Assembly (NCBI RefSeq): GCF_029589435.1
Contig: NZ_JARRAG010000001.1
Coordinates: 2,222,808-2,286,807, forward strand
Direction of reading: 5' to 3'
Length of the DNA stretch: 64,000 bases
Origin: Paludisphaera mucosa
GTDB taxonomy: Bacteria; Planctomycetota; Planctomycetia; Isosphaerales; Isosphaeraceae
Under the pieces are notes generated by a model. The model searched no databases, had not been told where the DNA came from, and saw only the letters and a list, made by a program, of their open reading frames with translations. The position numbers were made by a program, and so were the translations under genes. This document shows positions 4,920-45,875 of the stretch, in pieces (within the stretch, counting starts at the first letter, position 1; the number at the start of each line of letters is the position of its first letter).

Positions 4920-5043
4920 GATCGAGACGTCCCCACGGCGTCCGGATCCCGCGCGACGCAGACGCACGGGCGTCCTCCGACGTATCATACCCAGGAGTCG
5001 ATCGGCCCCGCCCCGCGACCTTCGTGAAACTCCCGCCCAAACC

Positions 5044-8175: not shown

Positions 8176-8293
8176 GCGGCTCCCGTCGATCTTGCAGGCT
8201 CGGCGAATCCCGATCCATTCTACTGCGGAGGGTCCATTTCGGGGATAAGATCGGAGGGACGAACCGTCCTCACTCGACCGAGAAGGCCTCTCC

Positions 8294-9622: not shown

Positions 9623-10031
9623 TCTTCACGAGCACCCGCTTCGGGCGTCGGCCGTCGAACTCGCCGTAGAAGATCTGCTCCCAGGGGCCGAAGTCGAGCT
9701 TGCCCTCGGTGATCGCGACGACGACCTCGCGGCCCATGATCTGCCTTTTCATATGGGCGTCGGCATTGTCCTCGCCGGTCCGATTATGTTTGTAGCGGGA
9801 CGGCGAGGCGTCGAACGGGGCGAGGGCTTCGAGCCAGGCCTTGTAGTCCTCGTGCAGGCCCGGTTCGTCGTCGTTGATGAAGACCGACGCCGTGATGTGC
9901 ATGGCGTTGACCAGGACGAGCCCCTCGCGGACGCCGCTCTTGCGGACGAGCGACTCGACCTCGCCGGTGATGTTCAAGAAGCCCATGCGGACGGGGAGGT
10001 TGAACGTCAGGTGCTCGGTCAGCGACTTCAT
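9609..10031 (-). CDS. YjbQ family protein (secondary thiamine-phosphate synthase type)
   Basis: A 140-residue single-domain protein matching the YjbQ/UPF0047 family over its whole length: the N-terminal beta strands, [16 protein letters not shown], the [16 protein letters not shown] block with its conserved His residues, and [13 protein letters not shown] near the end. Homologues have weak thiamine-phosphate synthase activity, but their native role is unclear. The start at 10031 is chosen because the family begins there; the longer open frame is not family-like. Confidence 0.88.
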
Positions 10032-10650
10032 GGTGGTTTCCGCAGGGAGGCGGGGGGAGGACGGGGACGACCTCCTTGTCGTCCACCGACGCGGCCTCGG
10101 GCAAGGAACGCCGCGCCGATCCTCTTCTCCTGAACGCGAGGTCGAGCCCGGATTCAGGCGGAGAGGGCCGTACTCTGGTGCGCATCGAAGATGATGAAAC
10201 CGCCTCGCCCAGGATTGCAAAGTCTGCGCCCGACGCGGGGTCGTTTTCGAATGGGCCGGCCGGCTTCCGCGGCCCTTCGCCATTCAGGTTGATCGGGTTC
10301 GCCTCGGGGCGCTCCAGGCGCGACGGGTCGACGATCGGGGCCGCACCTGGCGTTCGATCTCGGGATGCGATCGGTCGTGGCGACTCGGAGGACGAGTCTG
10401 AAAATGCCCGCCGGACCGCCCCCGTGTCAAGATTGCAGCGGAGGCCGCCGGCAGCCACCTGATGAACGTCTCGACAGGATGCCCGCCGGTAAATTCGCAC
10501 CTGTGAAGGCGTTGTGAATTTGCAAGAAAGTCGAACGGAATGAAGAATCTCGGATCAACGGGTCCGCGCGACCGGCGAGGTCGACGGCCGACGCCCGGCC
10601 GCCCGCACGGAGGGGGATCCGGCGGGCGGCGGCGGGGGTCGGCTTCGGAG
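10032..10650. other. 619-base gap without a supported gene
   Basis: This lies between yjbQ and the transporter gene, both on the minus strand. Open frames here have no plausible start, RBS or family. The composition is clearly less GC-rich than the genes. It contains an imperfect AT-rich inverted repeat, AAATTCGCAC (10491-10500) against GTGAATTT (10514-10521), and a 9-bp GC hairpin (10598-10630). The yjbQ promoter must be within it. Confidence 0.5.
10598..10630 (-). terminator. GC-rich hairpin downstream of the SbtA-type gene
   Basis: A perfect 9-bp stem GCCGCCCGC/GCGGGCGGC with a 15-base loop lies 21 bases after the transporter's stop on the minus strand. There is no T-run. Confidence 0.35.
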
Positions 10651-12195: not shown

Positions 12196-12484
12196 CGGAT
12201 CATTCTCCTGCGAGCATAGAGGGCGTGGGAGGCTTCGGCCGCCGCGTCATGGGGCGGCGAACACGCTCGGGGATGGGACGCCGGCGAGGCTGGGCGCACG
12301 CGGCCTCCCCCGCGAGGCGAGAGCGGGCGACAAATGTCGGCGAACCTGCGGCGCGTTCCTGCCCGGCTCCGTCGTTCCACCGATCGGGGTCATGCCTGCG
12401 ACGGCCTTGCGGCGTCGGGCGAGGGGTTGGTCCGGGAGAGGACGGGAGGCGAGGACCGATGGCCCGGGCGGGCGAGTGTGTCCT

Positions 12485-12829
12485 TCAACACCGCATGGGG
12501 GCGGTCGGCGGCGACGTCCGAAGCGCGGCGGCGACGATCCCGGGCGCGACCGGCCGCGGTCGCGGCGTGCGCGGAAGCCCGCGAACGCCGTCGGGGCCCG
12601 GGCCGTAGGCGACCGGGTCCTCGCTGTCGTCCTCGTTCTTCTCGCGCTCCAGAAACTCGTCGATCGACCGGCTCGGCGCGGGGCCCGGGTCGGGGCCGGG
12701 GTTGGACGCGCAGACGAGATCCCCGGCGATCGCGCCGCACGGGCCGTGGAGCGACGAGGCGGCCGTCTCGGAGGGCGGCCCCCCTTGCCACGCCAGGAGT
12801 GCGAAGACGAGCAGCAGGGTGTCTCTCAT
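12485..12829 (-). CDS. Possible small secreted protein
   Basis: A 114-residue frame that begins with a signal-like sequence (MRDTLLLVFALLAW) followed by a Pro/Gly-rich, acidic stretch (FLEREKNEDDSEDP). GGAG is present but only two bases before the ATG, which is too close to be convincing. No domain is recognised. The codon pattern looks coding over the first half and less so at the Pro/Arg-rich end. Confidence 0.4.
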   Translation of the reverse strand: MRDTLLLVFALLAWQGGPPSETAASSLHGPCGAIAGDLVCASNPGPDPGPAPSRSIDEFLEREKNEDDSEDPVAYGPGPDGVRGLPRTPRPRPVAPGIVAAALRTSPPTAPMRC

Positions 12830-13014
12830 GGCTCCGGAGGGACGGGGGAAGGGGACGCCGAACCAGGCTTCCAGGGCGAAGCCAAGGCCGACTCGATTAA
12901 ATACTCTTATAAATCGGCCGCGTTAGTCTAGGCGGATCTTCATGGAAGGATCAACTCGCCGCCGGGGGCCGACTCCCCCCGGCCGAATACGACGCGATCG
13001 GTGCCGCTTCGGGC

Positions 13015-13043
13015 TTGGTTTATTTCCGGCTTCGGATTAAGAT
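13015..13043 (+). promoter_or_regulatory. Candidate sigma70-like promoter of the GT4 gene
   Basis: TTGGTT (13015-13020), a 17-base spacer and TAAGAT (13038-13043) lie 73 bases before the ATG in a locally AT-rich patch. The same -10 hexamer precedes the tRNA gene. Confidence 0.4.
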
Positions 13044-13115
13044 CCCGTCGTCTCGGCCCCGAGATGCGGACTCCACGCTCCCAGGAACGCCGCCTGAACC
13101 GTCACGGAGGACGGG

Positions 13116-14270
13116 ATGAGACTACTCGCGCTTGTGGATTCGCCGGACCATGTCTGCTGCCGATACCGGATCCGCGCGTTCGAGCCGGCCCTCCGCGACG
13201 CCGGTTGGTCGCTGACCTGCGAGCCCCTGGAACGCGCCCTCCTGCCCCGCCTTCGGCAGCTGCGGGCGGTCGCGGGCTACGACGCGGTCGTCCTCCAGCG
13301 CAAGCTGCTGCCGGCCTGGGAGCTGTCCCTGCTCCGCAGGAACGCCCGCCACCTGGCGTTCGACTTCGACGACGCCGTGCTGCATCGCGATTCCTACGAC
13401 CGGCGGGGCGCCGCCTCGTCACGCCGCGCGGCCCGGTTCGCCCGGACCGTCCGGGCGGCCGACGTCGTCCTCGCCGGCAACGACTATCTGGCCGACTGCG
13501 CCCTCCGCGCCGGGGCCTCGGCCGAGACGGTCCGCACCATTCCGACCTGCGTCGACCCCGGTCGCTACTCCGTCAAGGCGGCCGGGCCGTCCCACGACGG
13601 GCCGCCGGAACTCGTCTGGATCGGCTCGTCGAGCACCTTGAAGGGGATCGAGGCGCGACGGCCGCTCTGGGAGCGGCTGGGCCGCGCGATCCCCGGGCTC
13701 AGGCTCCGCGTGATCTGCGATCGATTCCCGAAGTTCGAGAACCTGGAAGTCGTCGCCACGCCCTGGAGCGAGGCCGCCGAGGCCGAGGACCTGGCCCGGG
13801 GCGACGTGGGCGTCGGTTTGATGCCCGACGACGACTGGAGCCGGGGCAAGTGCGGCCTGAAGATCCTCCAGTACCAGGCGGCGGGCCTGCCCGTGATCGC
13901 CAACCCGGTCGGCTCGCACGTCGAGATGATCGAGCCCGGCGCGACCGGCCACCTGGCGACGACGGACGACGAATGGCTGGCGGCCGTCCGGGCCTCGGCC
14001 GACGCCGGCGCCCGCGCCCGGATGGGCCGCGAGGCGCGCCGCCGCGTGGAGTCGCACTACTCGGTCGCCGCCTGGGGGGCCGCGTTCGCGGCCTCCGCGA
14101 CGGGGATCGACGGCCCGCCCGGCGGGCGCCGCGAGCCGCCCGCGGAGGGGGCCTTCGGCCTCGCCTTCGCCCCGCACGTCACCCGGCAGAGGGCCCGAGC
14201 CGTCGGCAGCCCGCACGCGACGGCCGCCCCTCCCCGCGCGTCGCGGCGGGGCCGACATGGATCGGAATAG
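13116..14270 (+). CDS. Glycosyltransferase family 4 (GT-B fold)
   Basis: A 384-residue enzyme with the GT-B layout: an N-terminal half with LAFDFDDAV and DVVLAGNDYLAD, and a C-terminal half with LVWIGSSSTLKG, the GVGLMPDDDWSRGKCGLK loop and LKILQYQAAGLPVIANPVG, where family 4 enzymes bind the nucleotide sugar. GGAGG stands 5 bases before the ATG. The last ~50 residues are Arg/Ala/Pro-rich and probably disordered, and overlap the start of the next gene by 14 bases. With the kinase gene that follows it suggests assembly of a phosphorylated surface glycan or lipid sugar. Confidence 0.85.
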   Translation: MRLLALVDSPDHVCCRYRIRAFEPALRDAGWSLTCEPLERALLPRLRQLRAVAGYDAVVLQRKLLPAWELSLLRRNARHLAFDFDDAVLHRDSYDRRGAASSRRAARFARTVRAADVVLAGNDYLADCALRAGASAETVRTIPTCVDPGRYSVKAAGPSHDGPPELVWIGSSSTLKGIEARRPLWERLGRAIPGLRLRVICDRFPKFENLEVVATPWSEAAEAEDLARGDVGVGLMPDDDWSRGKCGLKILQYQAAGLPVIANPVGSHVEMIEPGATGHLATTDDEWLAAVRASADAGARARMGREARRRVESHYSVAAWGAAFAASATGIDGPPGGRREPPAEGAFGLAFAPHVTRQRARAVGSPHATAAPPRASRRGRHGSE

Positions 14271-16050
14271 GCTCATGACCGCAACGCTTCCCAGCATCCG
14301 GGCGAGGACGGCGGACGGCCGCATGTTCAAGCCCCCCGACTGGACCTTCGTGCAGGCCGGCGACGTCGGCTGGTGGCTCGAAGGCCGCTGGCGCGACGTC
14401 CTCATCGACGGCGAGGGCCTGCGGCTGGAGCAGTGGCGGGCCGAGGGCCGCGTCCAGACGATCAAGTCGGGCCCCCACCGCGTCGTCTACCGGGTGCAGC
14501 TCCCGGGCTCGGCGATCTACATCAAGCACTACCTCGTGCCGGACCGCCGGGCCAAGTACCGCCAGTGGTTCCGCCGCGGCAAGGGCCGCAACGAGGGCCG
14601 GCGCTCCCAGCGGCTGGCCTCGATCGGCCTCCCCACGATCGTCCCCATCGCCCTCGGCGAGCGGCGGCGGCGCGGGTTCCTCTTCGACAATTTCCTGATC
14701 ACCCGCGAGATCCCGGAGGCGGTCCCCCTCGACGAATACGTCGAACGCGACCTGCCCGCCCTCGACGAGCCCCGTCGCTCGCGGCTGCGCCGGAGCCTGG
14801 CCGCGGCCCTCGGCGCGCTGACGGCGAAGCTGCACAACGCGGGGCTCCAGCACATCGACTTCCATCCCGGCAACATCATGGTCCGGCTCGGTCCCGACGA
14901 CGAGCCGCAGCTCACGATGATCGACCTGGACGCCCTGCGGACGGTCCGGCGGCCGACCTGGGCGAAGGCGCGCCGCAACCTCGCGCTGCTCGACCATTAC
15001 TTCTGGACACGGAGCAGCCGCGTGGACCGCCGCCGCTTCCTCAAGGCCTACCTGGCGGCCCGCGACGGCGCGCCCGATTCCGTCCGCGACTTCGCCCAGG
15101 GCGTCGAGGCGTGCACCCGACGCTGGGCGGAGCGGCTCTGGCGACGCTGGGGCAAGCGCTGTCGGTCGACGAACAAGTATTTCGAGGTCTTCAAGTCCGT
15201 CAACGCCCTGTGCATCGCCTCGCGCGACCTGGACCCTTCGGAGATCGCCCCCCTGCTGGTCGACCCCGACGCCCTCTTCAACGACCCGGACGCGAAGCTC
15301 ATCAAGGATTCGCGGACGACCCGGCTCATCGAGACGACGATGATCGTCGACGGCCGGCCGACGGCCGTGGTCTACAAGCGGTTCAACCGCAAGAAGTGGA
15401 TCGACCCGGTGCTCTCGATCTTCCGGCCGTCGCGCGCCTGGAGGTCGTGGCAGGCCGGGCAGCATCTGCTGTCGCGAGGCGTGCCGACGCCCAAGAACCT
15501 GGCGTTCGTGGCCCGCCGCCGCAAGCCCTGGTTCTCGCCCTTCCAGGGGGTCCTGCCCCACGAGACCTACCTCGCCACCGTCAAGCAGCAGAACGCGACG
15601 ACCCTGGCCGAGCACGTCTTCCAGGTGCTCCCGGCGCTCCAGGGCGAGGCCCTCAAGGCCGAGGTCGACCGCCTGACGTCGGCGCTGGCGGCGCTCGTCC
15701 GGTTGCTCCACGACCGCTCGCTCTCGCACCGCGACCTGAAGGCGTCGAACATCCTGGTCCGCCTCGACGCCCCGCCGCGCGAGGACCTGCTGACGCTGAT
15801 CGACCTGGTCGGCGTGCGGCTCAAGGGCCCCTTGCCGATGAATCGCCGCATCCAGAACCTCGCCAGGCTCAGCGTCAGCCTCGCCGACGCCCCCGGGCGG
15901 ACGCGGACGACGTCGCTGCGCTTCCTGCGGGCCTACCTCCCGCAGCGGCTCTCGCGGTCGGGCGAGTGGAAGGCGCTCTGGCGGGCGATCGACGCCGCGA
16001 CCCACACCAAGAAGGCCCGTAACCACCGCCGCGGGCGCCCCCTATCCTGA
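14257..16050 (+). CDS. Tandem double kinase of the Kdo/WaaP (LPS core kinase) type
   Basis: A 597-residue protein with two kinase-like halves. Half 1 has a candidate ATP lysine in YIKHYL (near 89), a catalytic loop HIDFHPGNIM (His199, Asp201, Asn207) and a metal motif MIDLDAL. Half 2 has VVYKRFNRKKW (near 372), SHRDLKASNILV (His491, Asp493, Asn498) and LIDLVGV. WaaP-like kinases phosphorylate heptose or Kdo of the LPS core. Both halves keep the catalytic Asp, so both may be active. Overlap with the GT4 gene implies coupling. An alternative start is the ATG at 14275. Confidence 0.82.
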   Translation: MDRNRLMTATLPSIRARTADGRMFKPPDWTFVQAGDVGWWLEGRWRDVLIDGEGLRLEQWRAEGRVQTIKSGPHRVVYRVQLPGSAIYIKHYLVPDRRAKYRQWFRRGKGRNEGRRSQRLASIGLPTIVPIALGERRRRGFLFDNFLITREIPEAVPLDEYVERDLPALDEPRRSRLRRSLAAALGALTAKLHNAGLQHIDFHPGNIMVRLGPDDEPQLTMIDLDALRTVRRPTWAKARRNLALLDHYFWTRSSRVDRRRFLKAYLAARDGAPDSVRDFAQGVEACTRRWAERLWRRWGKRCRSTNKYFEVFKSVNALCIASRDLDPSEIAPLLVDPDALFNDPDAKLIKDSRTTRLIETTMIVDGRPTAVVYKRFNRKKWIDPVLSIFRPSRAWRSWQAGQHLLSRGVPTPKNLAFVARRRKPWFSPFQGVLPHETYLATVKQQNATTLAEHVFQVLPALQGEALKAEVDRLTSALAALVRLLHDRSLSHRDLKASNILVRLDAPPREDLLTLIDLVGVRLKGPLPMNRRIQNLARLSVSLADAPGRTRTTSLRFLRAYLPQRLSRSGEWKALWRAIDAATHTKKARNHRRGRPLS

Positions 16051-16078
16051 TCGGCATCGCTCCATGGAGGGACCGGAC

Positions 16079-17047
16079 GTGAACAGGCCCCGCGACGCCT
16101 CCCGACGTTCGACGACGCGCCTCGCCCTCCGGATCGGCCTCCTGGCCGGGCTCGCCGTCGCCGGCTGCTCGACCGTCGCCAAGCGCGGGCCGGCCCTGCT
16201 CCCCACGTCCCACCAGCTCAAGACGGGCCCGTTCGTGCTCTACTCGAACGAGCCGATGAAGCCCGACGCCCCGCCGGTCCTGGCCCTGGAGCGGCTCCGG
16301 ACCGACCTGGCCGGCCGCATGAACGTCGATGAGGACGCCGACCGCGGCCCGATCGAGGTGTACGTCCTCGACGATCGCAACGCCTTCCTCCACCTGCTCC
16401 GCTTCTACTTCCCCGAGCTGCCGCCGCGGCGCGCCTTCTTCCTGGCCCAGGGCGAGCAGCGGATCGTCTACACCTACCACGGCCCGATGCTGGAGGAAGA
16501 CCTCCGCCACGAGGCCGCGCACGCGCTCCTGCGCGGCCGGTTCGGCGACATCCCGCTGTGGGTCGACGAGGGGCTGGCCGAGTATTTCGAGGACGGCCCC
16601 GACGACCTGCGCGACCGGGGGGACCGCCTCGCCCGGCTCGCGGCCGACGTCAAGGCGGGTTGGAAGCCCGACCTGCGGCGGTTGGAGACGCTCGACGAGG
16701 TCCACCAGATGGATCCCCGCGACTATCGCGAGTCCTGGGCCTGGGTCGACCTGCTCCTGAGCGATTCCAAGCAGGGCAAGCCGCTGCTCCTCGACTATCT
16801 GCAGGCCCGCGGCCCCCGCCCCGCCCTGTCGGACGCGCTGGCGGCCGAGGGGACCGACGGCGCGCGGCTGCTCGCCCACCTCAACGGCGAGCCCGCGCGG
16901 GTCGTGGCGCAGAAGCCGACGGCCGAAGAGCCCCTCCCCGATCGGGTGGTGCGGCTCCAGGACCGCGCGACCGATCCCGTCCTCGCGGTCCCCGAGCCGC
17001 GACGACCGGGACTCCTCCGCCGCATCGGCTCGTTCCTGGGGTTCTGA
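16079..17047 (+). CDS. HExxH-containing lipoprotein, DUF1570-like
   Basis: A 322-residue lipoprotein with lipobox AVAGC and a zinc-metallopeptidase motif HEAAH (His144-His148), followed by WVDEGLAEYFE, which supplies the third ligand in the gluzincin/DUF1570 pattern common in Planctomycetes. The substrate is unknown. The GTG at 16079 is preferred because GGAGGG lies 7 bases before it; the ATG at 16064 would overlap that ribosome site and add five residues. It lies 28 bases after the double kinase. Confidence 0.75.
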   Translation: MNRPRDASRRSTTRLALRIGLLAGLAVAGCSTVAKRGPALLPTSHQLKTGPFVLYSNEPMKPDAPPVLALERLRTDLAGRMNVDEDADRGPIEVYVLDDRNAFLHLLRFYFPELPPRRAFFLAQGEQRIVYTYHGPMLEEDLRHEAAHALLRGRFGDIPLWVDEGLAEYFEDGPDDLRDRGDRLARLAADVKAGWKPDLRRLETLDEVHQMDPRDYRESWAWVDLLLSDSKQGKPLLLDYLQARGPRPALSDALAAEGTDGARLLAHLNGEPARVVAQKPTAEEPLPDRVVRLQDRATDPVLAVPEPRRPGLLRRIGSFLGF

Positions 17048-35028: not shown

Positions 35029-35535
35029 ATGGCCGGCGAAATCCTCATGAACATCGGCGAAGCCCTCGTGGGCGAAGGCAACGAGATCGCCCATATCGAC
35101 CTCCTCATCGGCAAGAAGGACGGCCCCGTCGGCCAGGCCTTCGCCACCGCGCTGGCCAACCAGTCGGCCGGCCACACCAACCTGCTCGCCGTGCTGACCC
35201 CCAACCTGATCGCCAAGCCCGCGACCGTGATGGTCACGAAGGTCACGATCAAGGGCATGAAGCAGGCCGTGCAGATGTTCGGCCCGGCCCAGTCGGCCGT
35301 CGCCAAGGCCGTCGCCGACAGCGTGGCCGAGGGCGTGATCCCCGCCGCCGCCGCCGAGGACCTGGTCATCGTCTGCGGCGTGTTCATCCACCCCGAAGCC
35401 GAGGACAACGCCAAGATCCTCAAGTTCAACTACGAGGCGACCAAGCTCGCCATCGCCAGCGCGATGAAGAACTCGCCCTCGATCTCCGAGATCACCGCCA
35501 AGAAGGACTCGGTCGAGCACCCGTTCGCCAAGTGA
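35029..35535 (+). CDS. fae: Formaldehyde-activating enzyme
   Basis: Condenses formaldehyde with tetrahydromethanopterin to methylene-H4MPT, the entry step of the archaeal-type C1 route found in methylotrophs and Planctomycetes. The 168 residues align through GEALVGEGNEIAHIDLLIG (the conserved His is His22), LLAVLTPN, VTIKGMKQAVQMFGPAQ, VAEGVIPA and NYEATKLAI, all hallmarks of Fae. The start follows GGGAGAA by 9 bases; longer frames are not family-like. mtdB, which oxidises the product, follows 91 bases on. Confidence 0.96.
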   Translation: MAGEILMNIGEALVGEGNEIAHIDLLIGKKDGPVGQAFATALANQSAGHTNLLAVLTPNLIAKPATVMVTKVTIKGMKQAVQMFGPAQSAVAKAVADSVAEGVIPAAAAEDLVIVCGVFIHPEAEDNAKILKFNYEATKLAIASAMKNSPSISEITAKKDSVEHPFAK

Positions 35536-35626
35536 CCGCCTGAATCCAGACGCCGGCCGCGACTCGCGCCGGCGTCTCCCTCCTCCTCTCCCCCTCCCTC
35601 CCACTCCGCCCATGCGGGGGGCCGCC

Positions 35627-36502
35627 ATGCCCGACGACAAGGCCACGATCCTGATCCAGCTCGACGTCGACGCGCAGCCCAGCGTGTTCGACGCCGTGGT
35701 CGCCGTGGACGCCAAGGTGGACCACCTGTTCCGCCACGGCGACGTCACGCCCGAGAACGTCCAGGACCTCGTCTACGGGGCCCTCTTCACCCGAGGCCCG
35801 GCCGACCTCCACCGCACCGCGCTCTTCGTCGGCGGATCCGACGTCGCGAAGGCCGAGGCCGTGCTCGCCAAGATCCGCTCGACGTTCTTCGGCCCCTTCC
35901 GCGTCTCGGTCCTGTTCGACGCCAACGGCTCCAACACGACGGCCGCCGCCGCCGCCCTGGCCGCGCTCTCGAGCGTCGGCGGCTCGCTGCAGGGCGTCCC
36001 CGCCGCCGTCCTGGCCGCGACCGGCCCCGTCGGCCAGCGCGTCGCCCGGCTGCTCGGCCGCCTGGGCGCGACGGTCGCCGTCGGGTCACGCGACGCGGCC
36101 CGCTCCGGCAAGCTCGCCGAACGCCTCCACGCGACCACGGGCGCGACCTACCAGGGCTTTAGTAACGCCGACGCCTCCGACCTGGAGCGGACCCTGGCGA
36201 AGACGGCCCTCGTCGTCAGCGCCGGGCCCGAAGGGGCGCGGCTCATCTCGGCCGCGCAATGGAAGGGCCGCGACGGGCTTCGCGTCGTCGTCGACCTGAA
36301 CGCCGTCCCCCCCGCGGGGATCGAGGGGGTCGAGGCGAACGACAAGAACGTCGACCGGGGCGGGATCCGCGCCTGGGGCGCGCTCGGCGTCGGCGGCCTC
36401 AAGATGAAGATCCACAAGCGGGCGATCCAGGACCTCTTCCGCTCCAACGACAAGATCCTCGACGCCGAGGAAGTCCTGGAGCTGGGCCGCGACCTCGTCT
36501 GA
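35627..36502 (+). CDS. mtdB: Methylene-tetrahydromethanopterin dehydrogenase
   Basis: Oxidises methylene-H4MPT to methenyl-H4MPT with NAD(P). The 291 residues show the MtdA/MtdB plan: FDAVVAVDAKVDHL and a GSDVAKAE motif in the N-terminal half, the dinucleotide site ATGPVGQRVARLLGRLGA, and DLNAVPPAGIEGVE plus the terminal helix. The start at 35627 (MPDDK) has a G6 run five bases upstream; the ATG at 35612 adds five residues. It follows fae, so the two catalyse consecutive steps. Cofactor preference (MtdA versus MtdB) cannot be settled by eye. Confidence 0.93.
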   Translation: MPDDKATILIQLDVDAQPSVFDAVVAVDAKVDHLFRHGDVTPENVQDLVYGALFTRGPADLHRTALFVGGSDVAKAEAVLAKIRSTFFGPFRVSVLFDANGSNTTAAAAALAALSSVGGSLQGVPAAVLAATGPVGQRVARLLGRLGATVAVGSRDAARSGKLAERLHATTGATYQGFSNADASDLERTLAKTALVVSAGPEGARLISAAQWKGRDGLRVVVDLNAVPPAGIEGVEANDKNVDRGGIRAWGALGVGGLKMKIHKRAIQDLFRSNDKILDAEEVLELGRDLV

Positions 36503-36772: not shown

Positions 36773-37828
36773 TCAGGGTTGCGGGACGCCCGGGATCGGG
36801 CCCTTCGTCGTCGTCTGGATGCGGCCGATGTACATGTCCGAGGCGATGTAGAAGACGCTGCGGTCCTCGCCCCAGGCGCAGTTGCCGCAGGCCTCGCCGG
36901 TGGCGAGCGTCCCCAGGTGCTTGCCCGCGGGCGAGAAGATCAGGACGCCTCCCGGGCCGGTCGCGAAGACGTTGCCGGCGTCGTCGACCTTCAGGCCGTC
37001 GGGCAACCCTTTACGCTTGCCGGCCAGGGGCGTGACGTCCGCGAACACCTTGCCGGCACCGAGCGTGCCGTCGGCGGCGACGGGATAGGCCATCCAGATC
37101 GCCCGTTTGGGGTCGGAGTTGGCGACGTAAAGGGTCTTCTCGTCGGGCGAGAAGGCGATGCCGTTGGGGAAGCTCAACTCGCGCGTCAGGAGCGTCAGTC
37201 GGCCGTCGACGCCGAGCTTGTAGACGCCGTTGAAGGCCAGCTCCTTGCCCTGGTCGTGGTTGTCGCCCAGCAGGCCGTAGGGCGGGTCGGTGAAGTAGAA
37301 GTCGCCGTTGGACTTGAAGGCGCCGTCGTTGGGGCTGTTGAGGCGCTTGCCCTCATAACGGTCGACGAGGGTGGTGAACTTGCCGTCGGCTTCGAGACGG
37401 GCGATCCGGCGGTCGCCGTGCTGGCAGAGGACGAGCCGGCCCTTCTCGTCGAAGGTCAGGCCGTTCGAGCCCGGCTCGCCGCCCCGGCCGACGGAGCCGG
37501 TGTAACCGCTGGGCTTGAGGGCGACGGACGTCCCTTTCGCCTTCATCCACTGGTGCACGACGTTCTCGGGCACGTCGGAGAACAGCAGCCGCCCGACGGT
37601 GGAGTCCCAGACGGTCCCCTCGGACCAGTCGAAGCCCTCGGCGATCCGCTCGACGCGTGCGCCGGGCGGGATGAGCCGGTCGAGCGCCGGGTCGAGGCGT
37701 TCGATCGCCCCCAGCGTCGGCGGCTCCTGCGCCGCCGCCTCGCGGCCGGCGAGCAACGCGGTCGCGACGAGGCACAGGCGGAACGAGGCTCGCGACGTCC
37801 GCGGCCTGAATCGACGAACCTGGTTCAT
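36773..37828 (-). CDS. Secreted SMP-30/gluconolactonase-like protein
   Basis: An exported six-bladed propeller of 351 residues after a signal peptide (cleavage after AAA near 33). Family motifs include FDWSEGTVWD, the metal-binding Glu in AEGFDWSEG, SNGLTFDEKGRLVL, RLNSPNDGAFKSNGDFYFTDPPYGL-type segment (metal Asn/Asp) and SFPNGIAFSPDEKTLYVANSD. It would hydrolyse sugar lactones in the periplasm. GGGAG lies before the ATG. It transcribes toward the inverted-repeat element. Confidence 0.92.
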   Translation of the reverse strand: MNQVRRFRPRTSRASFRLCLVATALLAGREAAAQEPPTLGAIERLDPALDRLIPPGARVERIAEGFDWSEGTVWDSTVGRLLFSDVPENVVHQWMKAKGTSVALKPSGYTGSVGRGGEPGSNGLTFDEKGRLVLCQHGDRRIARLEADGKFTTLVDRYEGKRLNSPNDGAFKSNGDFYFTDPPYGLLGDNHDQGKELAFNGVYKLGVDGRLTLLTRELSFPNGIAFSPDEKTLYVANSDPKRAIWMAYPVAADGTLGAGKVFADVTPLAGKRKGLPDGLKVDDAGNVFATGPGGVLIFSPAGKHLGTLATGEACGNCAWGEDRSVFYIASDMYIGRIQTTTKGPIPGVPQP

Positions 37829-37973: not shown

Positions 37974-40900
37974 TCAAGGTCTCACTCTCCAGAACCAGTC
38001 GGGATCGCCGAAGAGCCCCGCGGCCACGTGCTCGCCGAGGCTGCGGTAGCTCTCCCACTGGGCCTCGTCGAAGAACTGGTTGGCGGTGCTCTCGTGCGGG
38101 AAGTCGGAATGGAGCGCCTTGTACTCGGCGACGTCGACCTCCTCGTCGCCCGTGAGGGAGGTCTTCAGGTAGAGGAGCAGCGAGGTCGCCACGGTCTCCT
38201 CGTCGTAGCGGACGCGGTAGAGCGCCGCGTGCTTCCGCGACCGCTTCGGGCCGGTCGATCCGGCGACCGCGGCCGGCACCAACTCGTCGATGGTCCCGAG
38301 CCGGCCGCGCACGGCGGCGGGCATGTCGCCCCCGGTCACCAGGGCGTCCAGCTCCGCGTCCGTGAACGGCTCGACGTAGGCGTCGAAGTCGATCCGGACC
38401 TTGCGGATCAGCTCGCCCAGGCCCTCCATCGTGTAGTCCGGGTCGGCGCTGCCGTCGCAGACGATGATCCTGGGCACGCGGCGGCGGATCAATTCGTAGC
38501 CGCCCATGTTCTCGAAGAACCCGCCGTCGGAGACGTGCCAGTAGCGGCCCCACGGGCCGGGATAGAGCGCCAGCCATTCCGAGATCAGCAGGGTGTGCGT
38601 CAGGAAGGTCCGCGGCACGGCGTAGACGAGCCGTCGGAGGAAGCTGAGGGCGGGGAACCCGCGCCGCCCGGACAGCGCCAGCCCGCTGTCCCACCAGCGG
38701 CCGGTGCGGAGGTTGGCCAGGCCGAACAGCAGCGCCGTGCCGAGCCGGGTCGACTGGCCCCGCCCCGGTCCGATGGCCGCCCCGGAGAGCGCGACCCACT
38801 CCCGGAGCGAGAGCATCTCGACCTTGCCGCTCGCCTCGCCGGTGACGTCGAGCGCCGGGTGATCTGAGCCCGGACCGGCGTTGAGGGGTTTCACGCGGGT
38901 CCGCAGCGTCTTCGCCCCGGCCCGGCCGACGTCGGCGCCCCAGGCCGAGTGCCAGCGCGTGCCGACGGTCATCCCGATCGGGCTCACGGCGAGGCTCTCC
39001 CCCTTGCGGTCGCGGTTGCCTCGGAGCGAGGAGAAGTCGATCGTCTGGTTGACCGTCAGGTTGATCAGGTGGAACGGGCCCCCCATCTCGTGGGGGAGGT
39101 AGTCCTTCAGCGTGGGGACGTCGTCGCCGGCGATGACCTCGGTGACGTCCGCCGAGCCGGGCCGCCGCCGCACGGGGTTCGAGGCGCCGAGGTAGGCCCG
39201 CGCCAGCCGCGCGGCGTACATGTCCGAGAACGACGAGCGATTGACGAACGTGAGCGCCCGCGGGTGGGCGAGGACGGCCGAGACGACCAGCGCGGCGACC
39301 GTGGCGATGAGACCTCGCCAGTACGAATCCCCGCCCTGAAAGGCCGCGTGGGCCGCGAACGAATAGAGGATCAGCGGCACCGCGAACAGGACCGCGGCCA
39401 GCAGCCCCGCCCCGACCTGGGCCTGGAAGTCGCGCGACGACGAGGACGACTCGACGGCGGGCCCGCGGGTCGGCACGAACATCCCGGCGAGCATCCGGCC
39501 CAGCGGGACCAGGCCGACGATCGTGATGAAGAACGTCGAGAAGGCCCGGATGTAGGCGTCGTTCCGGGCCGTGTATTGCTGGAGCGAATAGCCGATCGTG
39601 TCCACGACGGCCAGGGCGAGGGCCCCGGCGGCCAGGGTCATCGCGAACCCCAGGTCGTACGTGAGGATGTTCCGCGTGCGCAGCCGCTGCGTGTTCTCGT
39701 CGCCCGCCCCGAGCGCCGCCTGGCGCCTCCGCCCGCGGGCCCAGGCCATCTCGACGTGAACGAAGGCCAGCAGGCTCGACAGCCCCAGCAGCAGGGGCTC
39801 GGTCTGCAGCCCGAAGTACAGGGCGAGGCCGATCAGCCCCGACGCCACCAGCAGCAGCAAGACCAGCGTCGGCCCCTGGAACCGCTCGTCGCGGTCCTGA
39901 GAGACCAGCCAGAAGCCGATCCCCAGCGGCACGACAAGGAGCAGCAGGATGCCTTCGGCCACCAGGAACCAGGGGCTGTAGAAGGCCCCGAAGATCCCCT
40001 CCAGCAGGTGGCCGATCGGCGTCCCGCCGCCGCCCACCGCCACCAGCCTCGTGAACGCCAGGACCGGGCTCAGCAGCTTGTAGCGGACGGCGTCCATCGT
40101 GCCGAAGAGGGCGAAGAACAGGGCCCCCAGGACGAGGTGGACGCTCACGAAGTTGCGGAAGTAGTTGGCCGCGTTCACCCGGTCGTCGCCGGCCCCCGCG
40201 GGCGCGAGGTAGTTGCTCTGCCGCCGCAGCCAGGCGATCTCGGGCGAGCCCGGGTGGATCAGCGCGCCCTCGACGTGCGAGGGGCCCGGCGGGTAGTCGC
40301 GGCCGCCGATCCCCTGCACCGGCGTCCTGCGCAGGCGGTCGAAGGCGCGGCCCAGGAACGAGCCGATGTAGCCGCCGCCGGAGACCGTCGACAGGAAGTC
40401 GACCCGCCTCAGCCGCTTCGCCCGCGCCAGCGCCTGGAGCACGCCCAGGTTGAACGTCGCGCTCCGCACGCCCCCGCCCGACAGGGCAAGACCCGTCACG
40501 TCGTCGGGCCACGTCGGCGTCGTCCCGTCGATCGTCGTCAGCGGGGCGCCCGTGTTGTCGGGCGACTCGGCGACCCGGGCCCGACGCCGGCCGAGCGCCT
40601 TCGACTCGCGCCGGCGCAGCTCGGCGGGGTACTCCGGGGCGTCGTCGCGCCGCTGGCGCGCGTCCTCGATCAGGACGTCGGCGGCCTTCTCGCTGGCCAT
40701 GTAGATGTTCGTGACCAGGAAGTAGCCCGGGATCAGCGGGAAGATCGAGCCGTCGACAACCCGGAGGCCGTGGACCTTGCGGACGCCGAACCTCGCGTCG
40801 AGCACGGCCGACGGGTCGCCGGTCGGGCCCATCCGGCAGGTCCCGCAGGCGTGGTGGCCCCACGCTTCGCGGAGGATCCACCTCTGGATCGCGGCGTCGT

Positions 40901-42755
40901 CGTCCGTCGGGACGGCCTCCCCGGGATGCAGTTCCTTCTTGACGAACAGCCGCGCGTTCCGCGATATCCCCCTCACGAACTTCACGCCGTCGACGAGCGC
41001 GTGCAGGTCCGGGTCCTGCAACGACGCGCCGGGCCGGGACTCCTCGTTGAAGTAGTGGAAGTTGATCTCGGGCGTGTCGCGGGGGTCGGTCGTGCGGAGG
41101 CGGACGACGCCGCCGTTGTTGCGCGTCCTTCCCTTGAGGATCACCCACGAGAACTTATCGTGCTGCTCGCCGACGGCCGAATAGCCGACCGAGTAGCCCT
41201 TGAACGGCAGGGGCGCGCCGAAGATGAACAGGTCCGGCTGCGGCTGTTCCGGGGACGATCGCTTGAAGATCCCCAGGATGGCCCCGTTGGAAGCGTACAG
41301 GCCCGTCCCCTGCTCGCGCCACTCCTGGAGGTGGGGGTCGGACGACGGCCGGGCGGGGTCCGACCGGACCTTGGCCCCTTCGAGGAGCGGGAAGTCGGCC
41401 TGCATCTCGCTGACGAGAGAGACCTCGTAGCGGTCTTGCAGGTTGCGGCCCACGCCGGGCAGGTCGATGCGACGGGGGGCCTGGTCCTCGCCGCGGATGA
41501 CTTCCGAATACCCGTCGCGGAGGGCGCAGAGGGTCGGGTCGCCGGCCTGCTCGGCCAGTCGCGCCAGCGCCTCGGGGTCGCCGATTCCCGAGAGCATCAG
41601 GAGCTGGGGCGTGTTGAACGAGCCGCCGCAGAGGACGACCTCGCCGCCCGGCTTGACGAAGGCCCGCTCCAGCGTCCCCGCCTCGTCGCTGGGGCTGACG
41701 TGGGCTCGGTAGAGCCGGGCGCCCCGGCGGAACTCCACCCCCACGGCGCGCGGCAGGGCCGAATGGTCGAAGAGGACGCGGCTCACCAGGCAGTCGGTCA
41801 TGATCACGAGCCGATCGGGGTGGGCGCCGACGACCTCGAGCAGCCTCTCGCGCGGGCCGGAGCGCCGCCCGCGACGGACGTTCGGCGCGGCCGGATCCTC
41901 GTGATTCGGCGTCTCCCGGCCGCAGACGGCCAGCGGGATGAGGACCACGCCCTCCGGGCTCTCGGCCTGGGTGGTCGCGTGATTGGGGTCGAGCGCCTGC
42001 GAGGCCCGACCGCGGAGGATCGTCCGGGCCCAGGTCCAGCCGCCGTCGAGCCCGGTCGCCGACACCTGCTTGAGGGCCGCCTTGATCATGCCGATCAACT
42101 GCCGGTCGCCCAGGCCGAGCTTCAGGTCGAGCACGCTCGTGCGGAGCCAGCCGGCGTAGCCGTGCCGCCCCCCGGTGTGGTCGACGTCCTTGCCGATCAG
42201 CCAGAGGAAGCCCTCCCAGGCCCGGCCCAGGAACCTCGTCGGCAGGGGCTTCGGCCTCGGCAGGTACTGGTTGCGCTCGAGCTTCTCGAAGTAGGCCCTC
42301 ATCGCGGCGGACCGCCACGAATCGTCGTCGAGGTAGACCGCCAGGTCGTCCCAGTCGGAGTCGGGGCCGGCGATGGTGATCATCGCGTTGTGGATCGTGC
42401 AGCCGCCGAGCGCCGCGGCGCGGGGGTAGAAGATCCCCGCGTGGGAGGCGTCCTCGTGGTTCGCCCGGTCGGGCTCGTGCCACTTGGGGTCGGGGCCGGC
42501 CGGGGGGTTCTCGTAGTGCTTCACGAAGAACCGCCAGCTCAGCTTCGGATCCTCGCTGGAGTCGGCGTGCAGGCCCGGGACCAGGCTGACCTCGGGCGCG
42601 TCGGCGGGCCCGCCGTGCGAGCCGGCCTCGATCACGAGCACCCGGCAGCCGTCCAGGGCCAGCCGGGCCGCCAGCGGGCCCCCGCCCGCCCCGGAGCCCA
42701 CGACGATGTAGTCGAATCCCTCATGCCGGGGGACGTCCGTCTCGGCCGTCGTCAT
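37974..42755 (-). CDS. GMC oxidoreductase fused to membrane-embedded patatin-like hydrolase
   Basis: A single 1593-residue frame. Residues ~14-698 are a GMC-type FAD oxidoreductase: dinucleotide motif VVGSGAGGG (19-25), GGCTIHNAM near 118, VVLCGGSFNTPQLLMLSGIG (373-392), a catalytic His at 634/635 in HHACGTCRMG, and a terminal FLVTNIYMASEKAA. After a ~50-residue charged linker, a patatin-like domain starts: GGGVRS (760-765, oxyanion), nucleophile Ser792 in TVSGGGYIGS and the partner Asp1410 in SDGGFFENMGG. Between Ser and Asp lie about eight hydrophobic segments. No export signal precedes the flavin domain. It is 57 bases after the di-heme cytochrome gene on one strand. The two activities suggest hydrolysis of an ester lipid and oxidation of the freed alcohol; the substrate is unknown. 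Confidence 0.85.
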   Translation of the reverse strand: MTTAETDVPRHEGFDYIVVGSGAGGGPLAARLALDGCRVLVIEAGSHGGPADAPEVSLVPGLHADSSEDPKLSWRFFVKHYENPPAGPDPKWHEPDRANHEDASHAGIFYPRAAALGGCTIHNAMITIAGPDSDWDDLAVYLDDDSWRSAAMRAYFEKLERNQYLPRPKPLPTRFLGRAWEGFLWLIGKDVDHTGGRHGYAGWLRTSVLDLKLGLGDRQLIGMIKAALKQVSATGLDGGWTWARTILRGRASQALDPNHATTQAESPEGVVLIPLAVCGRETPNHEDPAAPNVRRGRRSGPRERLLEVVGAHPDRLVIMTDCLVSRVLFDHSALPRAVGVEFRRGARLYRAHVSPSDEAGTLERAFVKPGGEVVLCGGSFNTPQLLMLSGIGDPEALARLAEQAGDPTLCALRDGYSEVIRGEDQAPRRIDLPGVGRNLQDRYEVSLVSEMQADFPLLEGAKVRSDPARPSSDPHLQEWREQGTGLYASNGAILGIFKRSSPEQPQPDLFIFGAPLPFKGYSVGYSAVGEQHDKFSWVILKGRTRNNGGVVRLRTTDPRDTPEINFHYFNEESRPGASLQDPDLHALVDGVKFVRGISRNARLFVKKELHPGEAVPTDDDAAIQRWILREAWGHHACGTCRMGPTGDPSAVLDARFGVRKVHGLRVVDGSIFPLIPGYFLVTNIYMASEKAADVLIEDARQRRDDAPEYPAELRRRESKALGRRRARVAESPDNTGAPLTTIDGTTPTWPDDVTGLALSGGGVRSATFNLGVLQALARAKRLRRVDFLSTVSGGGYIGSFLGRAFDRLRRTPVQGIGGRDYPPGPSHVEGALIHPGSPEIAWLRRQSNYLAPAGAGDDRVNAANYFRNFVSVHLVLGALFFALFGTMDAVRYKLLSPVLAFTRLVAVGGGGTPIGHLLEGIFGAFYSPWFLVAEGILLLLVVPLGIGFWLVSQDRDERFQGPTLVLLLLVASGLIGLALYFGLQTEPLLLGLSSLLAFVHVEMAWARGRRRQAALGAGDENTQRLRTRNILTYDLGFAMTLAAGALALAVVDTIGYSLQQYTARNDAYIRAFSTFFITIVGLVPLGRMLAGMFVPTRGPAVESSSSSRDFQAQVGAGLLAAVLFAVPLILYSFAAHAAFQGGDSYWRGLIATVAALVVSAVLAHPRALTFVNRSSFSDMYAARLARAYLGASNPVRRRPGSADVTEVIAGDDVPTLKDYLPHEMGGPFHLINLTVNQTIDFSSLRGNRDRKGESLAVSPIGMTVGTRWHSAWGADVGRAGAKTLRTRVKPLNAGPGSDHPALDVTGEASGKVEMLSLREWVALSGAAIGPGRGQSTRLGTALLFGLANLRTGRWWDSGLALSGRRGFPALSFLRRLVYAVPRTFLTHTLLISEWLALYPGPWGRYWHVSDGGFFENMGGYELIRRRVPRIIVCDGSADPDYTMEGLGELIRKVRIDFDAYVEPFTDAELDALVTGGDMPAAVRGRLGTIDELVPAAVAGSTGPKRSRKHAALYRVRYDEETVATSLLLYLKTSLTGDEEVDVAEYKALHSDFPHESTANQFFDEAQWESYRSLGEHVAAGLFGDPDWFWRVRP

Positions 42756-42812: not shown

Positions 42813-45800
42813 TCAGAAGGTCTTCAGCAACTCGATCAGCGCGTCCTTGTCGTCGTCGGTCATGGTCTTGAACCAGGGGAAATCGTGGCCCCGGTCCATC
42901 ACGAGGTCGGGGCATTTGCTCACTTCCAGCAGGGCCGGGGCGACCTGGTCGTGCAGGACCTTCTGCGTGGCCTCGGCCTTCAAGCCCCGTTCGCGGATCT
43001 CCGCCAGCGCCTTCGTGGTGAGCGCCGCGGCCTTCCGGAGCTTCTCCGGGTCGGCCTCGGGGTTGATGTTCGCCAGCAGGTTGACCGGCGTCCCCTCGGG
43101 GATCGGCCCGAGCCGCACCTCGCCGACGCGGCCGAGCAGGAAGGCCATGACGAAGGCCAGGCCGAGCGCGGCGAACAGCGGAATGTAACCCCAGAGCCAC
43201 CGCCGCCTGAGGCTGGTCGCCCGGAGCAGCCCGAACAGGGCGAGCACGACGAACGCCGCGGGCAGGAAGAGCAGCCGGCGATCCCGGAGCCAGGGGTGCG
43301 CGCCGAGCGTCTCCATCAGGAAATCGACGTTCGTGATCGCGAGGTACGGGACGTGCCGCGCGGGGATCGTGAGCCAGGTCTCGACCGGCGTGCGCCAGAT
43401 GAGCCCGTGATCCTGCTTCAGCCGTTCCGGGGTCGCGCCGTTGTAGCTGGAGCTTTCCAACCGCCGGTCGGGCCAGAGGAGCTTGCGGATCGCGTCGTCG
43501 AACGCCAGCAGGCGGCCGTCGACCGAGGGGTCGTTGTTGAAGAGGCCGAGGCTGTTGTTGTGCAGCAAGGGCGCGCCGGCCCAGATCGAGACCAGGGTCG
43601 GAACCCGGTAGAACCCCGGCCCGCCGCCGCCGGCCGCCACGCCCGACGCCGTCTTGTGCCGCGGCGTGTACTGGTCGGGCCCGCCCGATTCGCCCAGGAA
43701 CGGGTTGAAGAACGAGATCGCCCCCTCGGGGGGGAGCTTCTGGTAGTCGGCCGAGCTGAAGTCCTGCCACATGTGGCCCGTCATCGCGTTGGTCGCCACG
43801 GCGCGGGCCGAGTTCGTGCCGACGTAGTCGATCGGAATCCGGTAGTCGGTGGAGAGGTAGTTGTGCAGCCAGAAGGCCGGCTTCTTAACGATCTCCTTGG
43901 CCCAGTCCCGGTACCTGGGATCGGCCAGCCAGCGGCCCGGGTCGTGGTCCCAGTACTCCCCGCGATCGGCGAACGCCTGCATCTCGGCGTGGCGTTCGGC
44001 GGGCTGGATGCTCGAATGGCAGACGATGCAGTTGCGGGCGAAGACCTGGCGGCCGTGCTCGAGCTTGGTCGTATCGATCCGCCGGGCGCGCTCCGCGGCC
44101 AACAGCTCGGCGAAATCCGCCTTCTCCCGCTCGGCCTTCGCCTTCAACGACGGCTCGTCGACGGGCTTCGTCCGATCGAGGTCGTCCTGGACGTCGAGCA
44201 GGCGCATCGGCGGAGTGATCTTGAGGAAGTAGTCGCGCATCGGGCCGACGCGTTCCTGGGTGGCGATCCAGTAGAGCGAGTGGGCCTCGCAGTCTTCGAT
44301 CCGGAAGGGCTCCTGGGGCTGGAACCCGACGAGCAGGCGATTGATCCGGATCCACTGCTCCCAGTACGAACCGATATTCAAGTAGACCCGCGCCAGGGCC
44401 CCGTAACCGCCGATCGAGTCGGAGCCGTCCAGCAGGATGCGCGGGACGCGGCGGGGGTTCTCGTTCGACTTCGCCAGCTCGGCGGCGGCGACCGCGTGCT
44501 CGGGCAGGTCGGCCTCGAGCTGCTTGAGGTACTCGACCATCGCCAGATACGACGGGGATTTGTCGATCTCCGCGTCGCCCCAGAGCGACGGGAACTTCGC
44601 GGAGGCCGGCGTGAGCGTCTCCTTCGGGTTCTTCAGCGACAGCGCGACCCGCTGCGGCAGCGCGAAGATCGAGTTCATGGTGTTCGTGTTGTTGATGTTG
44701 TCCGACGGCAGCAGCGACGTGTCGATCGTCCCCGGCGGCTGGCTGTCCAGCAGGTGGTAGACGAAGCTGTCCTTGTTCAGGAGGTTGCCGAAGACCCCGC
44801 GGATCCGCAGATACTGGGCGCCGGTGTTCCCCGAGAGGTTCTCCCATCGGGGGTCGGTGATGTCGCGGGGCGGGTTGAGGGGATGGAACGAGGTGTGGCA
44901 GAACGCGCAGGCCATCCCCACGCGGAAGGGCCGCACCAGGTCGGGGTTGCCGTAGTAGTCGGGATCGTTGTAGTACCGATCGGCGTCCCAGGCCGCGCGG
45001 GCCTTCCCGTCGAACTTGGGGTTCGGAAAGAGTCGCAGGCCGATCACCCCGCTGGAGAGCCCGTAGATGTCGGGGGGCAGGGTCGGCGTTTTGGCCGTGG
45101 CGGCCGCGCCGTAGGCCCCGGCGCCTTCGGGGCGGGGGTAGGTCGTCCGCGGGTCATAGTCGGCGGCCTGCTGGCGATCGAAGACCCGCTTGAGATACTC
45201 GGCCCGCGCCGCCCGCCGTTCGGCGTCGGACGGGACGTTGAGCCAGAGGCCGAAGTCCGTCGCCTCGGGCGCGCCGGTGCGCATCATCTCGGGCTCGTTG
45301 ATGATCCCGGCGTCGCGGAAGACGGTCGCGCGGTTGCGGCTGTCCAGGAGCTTGAGCAGGTCGCTGGCGCCGAAGCTGTTGTTCGCCAACCAGTCCCAGA
45401 AGCCCTCGTTGCCCGAGCACCAGCTCATCCAGGTGTTGCGGCCGATCGCCTCCGAGACGCTCAACGGCAGCGCCCCGACGTCCCGTTTGGGGCGCAGACC
45501 GATCGCGGGTCGGCGCTCGTCCGACGGCGAGGCCGGCGTGGGCGGGAGGTCGACGAGCTGATCGGGCCAGTCGGTCGCCCCCTCGGCCTTCCGCCCGACG
45601 ACGTCCATCCTGGGGAAGTAATCGCGGTGCGGCGGCGCGTAGTCTTTCGCCGCATCCTGGGGCGTGCGGTTGGCGAACCGGGCCCGCACCATCGCCTCGT
45701 CGTCGGGCGGGACGCCCCCCGAACGCGAGCAGCCGCCGAGCGGCCCCAGGACCGCCGCCGACAGGACGAGGCCGCAGGCCAGGCCGCGGGGCCCACGAAA

Positions 45801-45875
45801 GCCGGCCGGCCTCGCGCCGAACCCGGACGCGGCGCCCGCCGTCGCGAGGTCCGGAGCCTTTCGCACGGAAATCAT
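42813..45875 (-). CDS. Large di-heme cytochrome c lipoprotein
   Basis: A 1020-residue exported protein with lipobox LGGC (Cys49) and two CxxCH haem sites, CAFCH at 323-327 and CIVCH at 616-620. The block NTWMSWCSGNEGFWDWL is typical of RoxA/di-haem peroxidase-related planctomycete cytochromes. The C-terminal part has two hydrophobic helices (about 855-915) and a soluble tail with TMTDDDKDALIELLKTF, a cytochrome-like ending. It lies directly upstream of the GMC-patatin gene, which suggests it accepts electrons from that flavoenzyme, as cytochrome subunits do for other GMC dehydrogenases. The start at 45875 is the only good one. Confidence 0.85.
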   Translation of the reverse strand: MISVRKAPDLATAGAASGFGARPAGFRGPRGLACGLVLSAAVLGPLGGCSRSGGVPPDDEAMVRARFANRTPQDAAKDYAPPHRDYFPRMDVVGRKAEGATDWPDQLVDLPPTPASPSDERRPAIGLRPKRDVGALPLSVSEAIGRNTWMSWCSGNEGFWDWLANNSFGASDLLKLLDSRNRATVFRDAGIINEPEMMRTGAPEATDFGLWLNVPSDAERRAARAEYLKRVFDRQQAADYDPRTTYPRPEGAGAYGAAATAKTPTLPPDIYGLSSGVIGLRLFPNPKFDGKARAAWDADRYYNDPDYYGNPDLVRPFRVGMACAFCHTSFHPLNPPRDITDPRWENLSGNTGAQYLRIRGVFGNLLNKDSFVYHLLDSQPPGTIDTSLLPSDNINNTNTMNSIFALPQRVALSLKNPKETLTPASAKFPSLWGDAEIDKSPSYLAMVEYLKQLEADLPEHAVAAAELAKSNENPRRVPRILLDGSDSIGGYGALARVYLNIGSYWEQWIRINRLLVGFQPQEPFRIEDCEAHSLYWIATQERVGPMRDYFLKITPPMRLLDVQDDLDRTKPVDEPSLKAKAEREKADFAELLAAERARRIDTTKLEHGRQVFARNCIVCHSSIQPAERHAEMQAFADRGEYWDHDPGRWLADPRYRDWAKEIVKKPAFWLHNYLSTDYRIPIDYVGTNSARAVATNAMTGHMWQDFSSADYQKLPPEGAISFFNPFLGESGGPDQYTPRHKTASGVAAGGGGPGFYRVPTLVSIWAGAPLLHNNSLGLFNNDPSVDGRLLAFDDAIRKLLWPDRRLESSSYNGATPERLKQDHGLIWRTPVETWLTIPARHVPYLAITNVDFLMETLGAHPWLRDRRLLFLPAAFVVLALFGLLRATSLRRRWLWGYIPLFAALGLAFVMAFLLGRVGEVRLGPIPEGTPVNLLANINPEADPEKLRKAAALTTKALAEIRERGLKAEATQKVLHDQVAPALLEVSKCPDLVMDRGHDFPWFKTMTDDDKDALIELLKTF

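Follow-up and report, generated by a model that had tools for sequence, protein, structure and literature searches.

A GMC flavoprotein fused to a membrane-inserted patatin and encoded beside a di-haem cytochrome c: a candidate lipid hydrolysis-oxidation module in Paludisphaera mucosa

Two enzyme superfamilies are joined in a single polypeptide of Paludisphaera mucosa. The window, a stretch of 64,000 nucleotides from this 8.2 Mb genome, carries on its minus strand a frame of 1593 amino acids (37974..42755, ATG start at 42755, no internal stop) that consists of a GMC flavoprotein part (residues 1-697, 40665..42755, minus strand, delimited by Pfam and alignment) and a membrane-inserted patatin/cPLA2-like hydrolase part (residues 701-1593, 37977..40655, minus strand). 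A large di-haem cytochrome c is encoded next to it, and the fusion is put forward, with about even confidence, as the core of a lipid hydrolysis-oxidation module in which this neighbouring cytochrome takes part. Each part comes from a known superfamily, and a search of open full-text papers, which make up a part of the literature, turned up no account of either the fusion or the gene set.

The first-pass annotation of this DNA had described a single GMC and patatin frame of 1593 residues, and the description held, with the frame open throughout, the GMC domains recognized by Pfam and a fold model obtained for the hydrolase. The catalytic marks it listed were also located at the residues named, namely GSGAGG at 20, HHACGTC at 634, GGGVRS at 760, Ser792 and Asp1410. 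A stop or frameshift at residues 698-752 would have undone the fusion; in the window and the three other genomes compared, the frame runs on through the junction, any gaps there being whole codons. Nor are the homologues always encoded as two genes, as six further fused loci were recovered. An assembly or frameshift artefact was rejected in view of the fused relatives elsewhere, the open frames and the whole-codon gaps. The closest named match of the fusion is from Paludisphaera soli, a planctomycete, and full-length relatives were found in this species (L005, 75%), in Planctomycetales MAG 71-10 (L006, 69%) and in G031 (76%).

Substitution rates computed for four of the six possible pairs among four fused genomes showed that both halves are under purifying selection, with dN of 0.15-0.19 against dS of 0.53-0.57 in the GMC part and dN of 0.13-0.20 against dS of 0.49-0.65 in the C-terminal part of the patatin. 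In the same four pairs the membrane part was looser (dN 0.26-0.33) and the junction at 698-752 was the loosest (dN 0.39-0.62, equal to dS in one pair). The alignment of stand-alone patatins to the fusion begins at about residue 709, and residues 698-752 correspond largely to the N-terminus of these patatins and not to a linker, the two parts being joined nearly end to end. Within codons 691-725, ATG, GTG and TTG are absent in the window, L005 and L118; GTG ATG is present in L006.

The GMC part was assigned by GMC_oxred_N (2.6e-16) and GMC_oxred_C (1.2e-25, residues 549-687), both over the Pfam cut-off. Its subfamily was aligned as 22 members plus one outgroup row, L156, which lacks Cys119, His122 and Cys640 and whose GMC matches the profile at 598 bits. 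L005/G030 and L006/G032 were taken as the same genomes from their equal frame lengths and scores and were each counted once, and L019, with an incomplete GMC on the other strand, was kept outside the 22. Cys119, His122, His634, His635, Cys640, Pro676, Gly677 and Phe679 are present in 22/22 members, counts that for the motifs missing in L156 hold partly by definition, since this row was set aside as the outgroup after the motifs had been seen. Places 20, 22 and 43, which belong to GxGxxG and the Glu following it, are G, G and E in 22/22.

Within LGGCTxH, His122 (codon 42390..42392, minus strand) is the predicted site of covalent FAD attachment. Its aligned counterpart in pyranose dehydrogenase 4h7u is the His of GGCSTHN (5.3e-05) and, in a weak alignment, that of GGCSSHN in choline oxidase (0.067). 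Pyranose dehydrogenase and choline oxidase carry covalent FAD, and the GMC part probably does likewise at His122. In HHACGTC (residues 634-640, 40836..40856, minus strand), His635 is the predicted catalytic base and aligns with the His of YHVSCSC in 8b7s. The second catalytic residue of GMC enzymes is His or Asn; 8b7s has Asn at this place, whereas Phe679 (codon 40719..40721, minus strand) occupies it here, with Phe also in the outgroup row. The protein therefore counts as a homologue of GMC enzymes whose active site is unusual, rather than as a GMC enzyme of known kind. Judged by eye, the first 45 residues of the 22 GMC proteins show no apparent signal peptide ahead of the FAD motif, and the GMC part looks cytoplasmic.

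Fatty acid photodecarboxylase was the best PDB match of the GMC part by phmmer (1.8e-25) and the second by profile. The catalytic His is replaced in photodecarboxylase, and identity with this enzyme was rejected because His635 is kept here and no His stands at the aligned photodecarboxylase place. The FAD-binding and C-terminal GMC domains are common to the window protein and to choline oxidase, pyranose dehydrogenase and fatty acid photodecarboxylase, and a GGCxxHN-like motif and a catalytic His are likewise shared with GMC oxidoreductases. In contrast to the known enzymes, the window GMC has Phe at the Asn/His place, a hydrolase fused to it and a di-haem cytochrome as its neighbour.

For the hydrolase half, an AlphaFold2 model of residues 701-1593 built from 38 sequences (pLDDT 85.3, pTM 0.88) matched human cPLA2 1cjy with a Z-score of 21.8 over 402 aligned residues at 3.9 A. 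The best structures were human cytosolic phospholipases A2 (Z 21.8-21.3), then PlpD (18.6), CapE (17.4) and plant patatin (14.6); these scores came from a second comparison, as Foldseek alone gave no match for the patatin half at E<=0.001. A cPLA2 catalytic fold of the hydrolase half is thus supported by the predicted structure. The GGGxR loop is present, together with a dyad formed by the predicted nucleophile Ser792 (codon 40380..40382, minus strand, in VSGGGY at 791) and the predicted catalytic Asp1410 (codon 38526..38528, minus strand, in SDGGFF at 1409, hence with DGG). Ser and Asp are conserved at these places in 38/38 aligned patatins. The sequence at 790-794, TVSGG, departs from a strict GxSxG elbow. 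An HMM check of both domains had been proposed with the first-pass annotation; it came out in full for the GMC models and in part for the patatin model PF01734, which passed in the translated-genome search (32.8 bits against a cut-off of 27.7, 47/191 model positions) but was absent from the whole-protein hmmscan at E<=1. A guess is that the hydrophobic insert breaks this model.

The insert comprises about eight hydrophobic segments between Ser792 and Asp1410 (residues 866-1171, 39243..40160, minus strand), as originally noted, with eight hydropathy peaks at a cut-off of 1.6 that all lie within this range. Since 5-9 such peaks occur between Ser and Asp in 38/38 aligned patatins, the membrane insert is a feature of this particular family of patatins in general and not of the fusion. 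The loops carry 18 Lys and Arg on the predicted inside and 5 on the outside (segment limits by eye), and this distribution favours a cytoplasmic location of the N-terminus, Ser792 and Asp1410. An N-terminal C2 domain is found in most cPLA2 isoforms; no C2 match was obtained in the whole-protein Pfam scan of the fusion, so the hydrolase part is not classed as a cPLA2. It resembles patatin and group IV cPLA2 in the GGGxR loop, the Ser/Asp dyad and a fold closer to 1cjy than to plant patatin, but differs from them in the hydrophobic segments, the lack of a C2 match and TVSGG in place of GxSxG.

The recurrent third part, which the first-pass annotation missed, is the di-haem cytochrome c gene (42813..45875, minus strand), whose stop codon lies 57 bases upstream of the fusion start. 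Its product of 1020 amino acids has a lipoprotein-like signal (LGGC, by eye) and two haem motifs, CAFCH at residues 323-327 (44895..44909, minus strand) and CIVCH at residues 616-620 (44016..44030, minus strand). A di-haem gene adjoins the GMC in 21/22 loci of the subfamily, among which L148 was found via this gene and so is no test of the association. Among 80 loci fetched with the whole fusion, it occurs in 7/7 that have a complete fused or same-strand GMC and in 0/73 of the remainder, some of which are short contigs. The window cytochrome scored below the cut-offs of both PF21419 (18.8 of the 26.7 bits needed) and NF040606 (43.5 of 150 bits, 2.4e-11), and AlphaFold2 gave it a low-confidence model (pLDDT 43.9, 8 rows). 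Profile surveys recovered such cytochromes in 10/45 genomes of the window's family, with up to 21 candidates scored. With the centre genome included and two to three candidates at most scored per genome, they were recovered in at least 1/392 genomes of a phylum draw, at least 1/296 of the order of L011's genome, at least 2/240 of the phylum of L010's genome and at least 1/249 of the phylum of L008's genome. Considering that c-type cytochromes mature in the periplasm and that the GMC has no apparent signal peptide, the GMC/hydrolase and the cytochrome are probably separated by the membrane.

A second large di-haem cytochrome of the same family was seen at G000:C2:1774726-1776921 (L129 7634-9973) and in G037 (L149 8236-10497). 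Both adjoin an ORF that by eye resembles a TPP-dependent decarboxylase, and no GMC of the subfamily profile was found in the 18 kb read there. In L147, a di-haem cytochrome gene has a 1382-residue patatin ahead of it (6821-10969 and 11535-13940), with no GMC in the stretch read; a link of hydrolase and cytochrome can therefore exist without GMC.

The functional coupling of the two halves, suggested in the first-pass annotation, is supported by the unfused loci, in which GMC and lipid-hydrolase genes repeatedly lie close together. A GMC match is present in 9/80 loci fetched with the whole protein, a sample biased toward the patatin: L005 and L006 are fused, L007 holds a remnant, L008-L011 and L013 have separate same-strand genes, and L019 has the incomplete GMC on the other strand. 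The gene order is patatin, di-haem, GMC in L008 and L009 and di-haem, GMC, patatin in L010, L011 and L013. In L008, a Gemmatimonas MAG, a second short patatin soon follows the GMC (15177-16523), and a PQQ dehydrogenase-like gene lies upstream of the cluster (4560-6560). A plasmid search with the GMC part alone yielded 23 records at 1e-40; 10 regions were read and 9 proved to be subfamily members, which fall into about three lineages on the GMC tree and are thus not independent. The di-haem gene lies beside the GMC in 8/9 of these members (not in Calothrix, where no di-haem cytochrome was found in the stretch read), or 8/10 with L156, which has neither the subfamily motifs nor a di-haem gene, and a patatin is fused or adjoining in 8/9 (not in Sinorhizobium sp. 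B11). In S. fredii CCBAU 45436 the patatin homologue is split over two frames.

Within the window's family, L115 has a di-haem gene, GMC, a patatin unmatched by the fused-type profile and a RoxA-like gene; L116 has an a/b hydrolase, di-haem and GMC; and L117 has di-haem, GMC and an LCAT-like hydrolase, then DUF4331, TPR and HupE/UreJ, with a patatin about 6 kb further on. No patatin was found in the stretch read of L116 or L155. The fused patatin differs in kind from those of the rhizobial operon, Calothrix and L115. A single clade for the patatins linked to GMC or the di-haem gene was rejected (p-AU 0.0005; 13 rows including L147, against 17), so different patatins seem to have joined the locus on more than one occasion.

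RoxA-like di-haem genes were detected in 8/22 loci (L011, L115 and six rhizobial ones) by phmmer in L150-L159 and by Pfam on chosen genes elsewhere, a search that covered part of the 22 loci. The one in L011 lies directly upstream, matches PF21419 at 1.7e-20, exceeds the NF040606 cut-off and aligns with RoxA 4b2n at 3.1e-6 over 40 residues; used as a phmmer query, its product matched a pair of such genes in every one of the six rhizobial loci. In Rhizobium johnstonii 3841 the order is FMN oxidoreductase, RoxA-like, 143-aa protein, RoxA-like, di-haem, GMC and patatin. About 2.5 kb upstream of the Calothrix GMC, a peroxidase is encoded that is a homologue of fatty acid alpha-dioxygenase (4kvj, 9.5e-121); with three other genes between the two, it may or may not belong to the locus.

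Seven fused loci are known from these searches, comprising four in the window's genus (window included), one from a Verrucomicrobiota draw, and one Rhizobium and one Mesorhizobium plasmid. In the family search the fused form was present in 4/6 same-genus genomes (window's included) and 0/39 others, many of them drafts. Limitation to one genus was rejected by the other three loci. G952/L148, from a draw on the phylum to which the Chthoniobacteraceae MAG L010 belongs, encodes a 1714-residue fusion with the same motifs; a plasmid of Rhizobium sp. CCGE532 (L152) has a fused open frame of 1544 codons; and a plasmid of Mesorhizobium onobrychidis (L153) encodes WP_258124319.1, a fusion of 1562 amino acids annotated as GMC oxidoreductase, so that at least one fused protein stands in the databases under a one-sided name. 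All three follow a di-haem gene. CCGE531 gave the same GMC match as CCGE532 in the plasmid search, in a region outside those read.

On a quick 21-row GMC tree, one branch (SH-aLRT 92) sets the seven fused rows apart from the rest, with a single state change, and an earlier, careful 15-row tree grouped five fused rows with support of 93/86. The fused patatins as one clade were unrejected (p-AU 0.93) on a quick tree of 30 rows that kept L007 in the group and left out the two rhizobial fusions, and a free patatin tree search placed L148 apart from the other fused forms; the first trees were already known when these clade tests were made. The simplest reading of the trees is that one fusion spread by transfer over at least three phyla, for which a support of 92 is not decisive. 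Independent fusions were not supported, given the one state change on the GMC tree and the p-AU of the fused-patatin clade. In L007 (993-3941), which was left out of the fusion count, a fused-type patatin is preceded by only the last ~87 GMC positions, and no GMC was found in the contig's first 992 bases; this remnant may be either a decaying fusion or an assembly break.

In the proposed module, about eight helices would anchor the patatin/cPLA2-like part, which would hydrolyse an ester lipid on the cytoplasmic side of the membrane. The GMC part would then receive what is released, most likely a fatty acid, oxygenated or not, and oxidise a hydroxyl or aldehyde group with its probably covalent FAD. 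For the di-haem protein a periplasmic role is envisaged: as a RoxA/10S-DOX-like oxygenase it would add oxygen to the lipid before cutting, or it would serve as an electron-transfer partner via the quinone pool. The cytoplasmic and periplasmic sides might be bridged by this pool or by serial action on a lipid that changes side, and the fusion might also be exported by some unusual route. The fused loci, the clustered separate genes, the di-haem link, the RoxA-like and alpha-dioxygenase neighbours, the cPLA2 fold and the loop charges speak for such a module. Against it, the opposite membrane sides of GMC and cytochrome stay awkward, the patatin was missing from the stretches of L116 and L155 and distant in L117, L147 is without GMC, the second GMC catalytic residue is missing, and the cytochrome falls below the RoxA-like and di-haem peroxidase cut-offs.

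The first-pass annotation had instead suggested that the released alcohol, for example a sterol or a long-chain alcohol, is what the GMC oxidises; the hydrolase would then cut an ester of such an alcohol, or a wax. GMC enzymes commonly oxidise alcohols, and the variety of hydrolases near the GMC (patatins, the a/b hydrolase in L116, the LCAT-like one in L117) would suit this reading; it is nevertheless rather doubtful, as the RoxA-like and alpha-dioxygenase families act on unsaturated chains or free fatty acids rather than alcohol and the closest predicted fold is that of phospholipase A2. The oxygenase-type neighbours and the oleate chemistry of PA2077 (below) weakly shift the expectation from the released alcohol toward the fatty acid, to which the neighbours point at least as much.

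Lipid repair, in which the hydrolase would excise oxidised acyl chains while the flavoprotein and a di-haem peroxidase-like protein detoxify peroxides or aldehydes, would be in keeping with the membrane location of the hydrolase and with the weak, below cut-off kinship of the cytochrome to di-haem peroxidases (NF040606). The patchy occurrence of the cytochrome, in 10/45 family genomes and at least 1/392 of the phylum draw, would be odd for a housekeeping function and makes repair unlikely. It is quite improbable that the fusion merely tethers two co-regulated enzymes with no product passed between them: the association of GMC with unlike hydrolases suggests a shared pathway, against which stand the fast-evolving junction in the four pairs and the separate forms elsewhere.

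A broader reading of the fusion and its neighbours, tentative but possible, is a mobile bacterial oxylipin or lipid-oxidation machine, in which a membrane phospholipase A2 would be physically linked to the dehydrogenase that acts on what it releases, with a di-haem oxygenase encoded alongside, in parallel with the animal cPLA2-oxygenase-dehydrogenase chain. A single fusion would have moved among planctomycetes, a lineage of verrucomicrobia and plasmids of rhizobia, with oxygenase and hydrolase parts swapped around a constant GMC core. If the lipid hydrolysis-oxidation module works, it would provide a genetic handle on the bacterial making or breakdown of oxidised lipids, and the fusion would tell which enzymes share one pathway. 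Members reside on plasmids of the cultured legume symbionts Rhizobium johnstonii 3841, Sinorhizobium fredii and Mesorhizobium onobrychidis, so the pathway is open to ordinary gene removal.

Several described systems resemble parts of this set. P. aeruginosa PA2077, a relative of RoxA, adds oxygen to oleate (PMC4496055), and this diol synthase activity is located in the periplasm (PMC5155153). The window neighbour has in common with RoxA and PA2077/PA2078 (FadCcp; PMC4496055) two CxxCH motifs and, in variant form, the PYLHNGSV signature; it is however larger, scores below the RoxA-like cut-off and reads APLLHNNSL, with the histidine of LHNN lost in L011 and L013. The GMC dehydrogenase of Collimonas (PMC12542777) has a large, a small (Tat) and a cytochrome subunit and thus pairs a GMC flavoprotein with a cytochrome, as in the window. 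By comparison, the neighbourhoods read here showed no recognisable small Tat subunit, and a hydrolase is present. The window cytochrome differs from the Collimonas one in size and type. CAZy family AA3 is the GMC family. In the tables of PMC6087703 and PMC7409140, Roseithermus AWN76_007050 is given without comment both as a patatin-like phospholipase and as CAZy AA3, with a fold change of 2.70 on xylan, and it is probably another fusion.

Further genes were observed around the loci. DUF4331 genes recur close to this locus in genomes related to the window's (L005:12821-14245, L118:6208-7560 and L117:11585-13243). In the window itself, however, a mere 145 bases separate the fusion from the next gene, which is SMP-30/gluconolactonase-like (36773-37828), and at 35029-36502 a formaldehyde-activating enzyme (Fae) gene is followed by that of methylene-tetrahydromethanopterin dehydrogenase, a C1-pathway pair.
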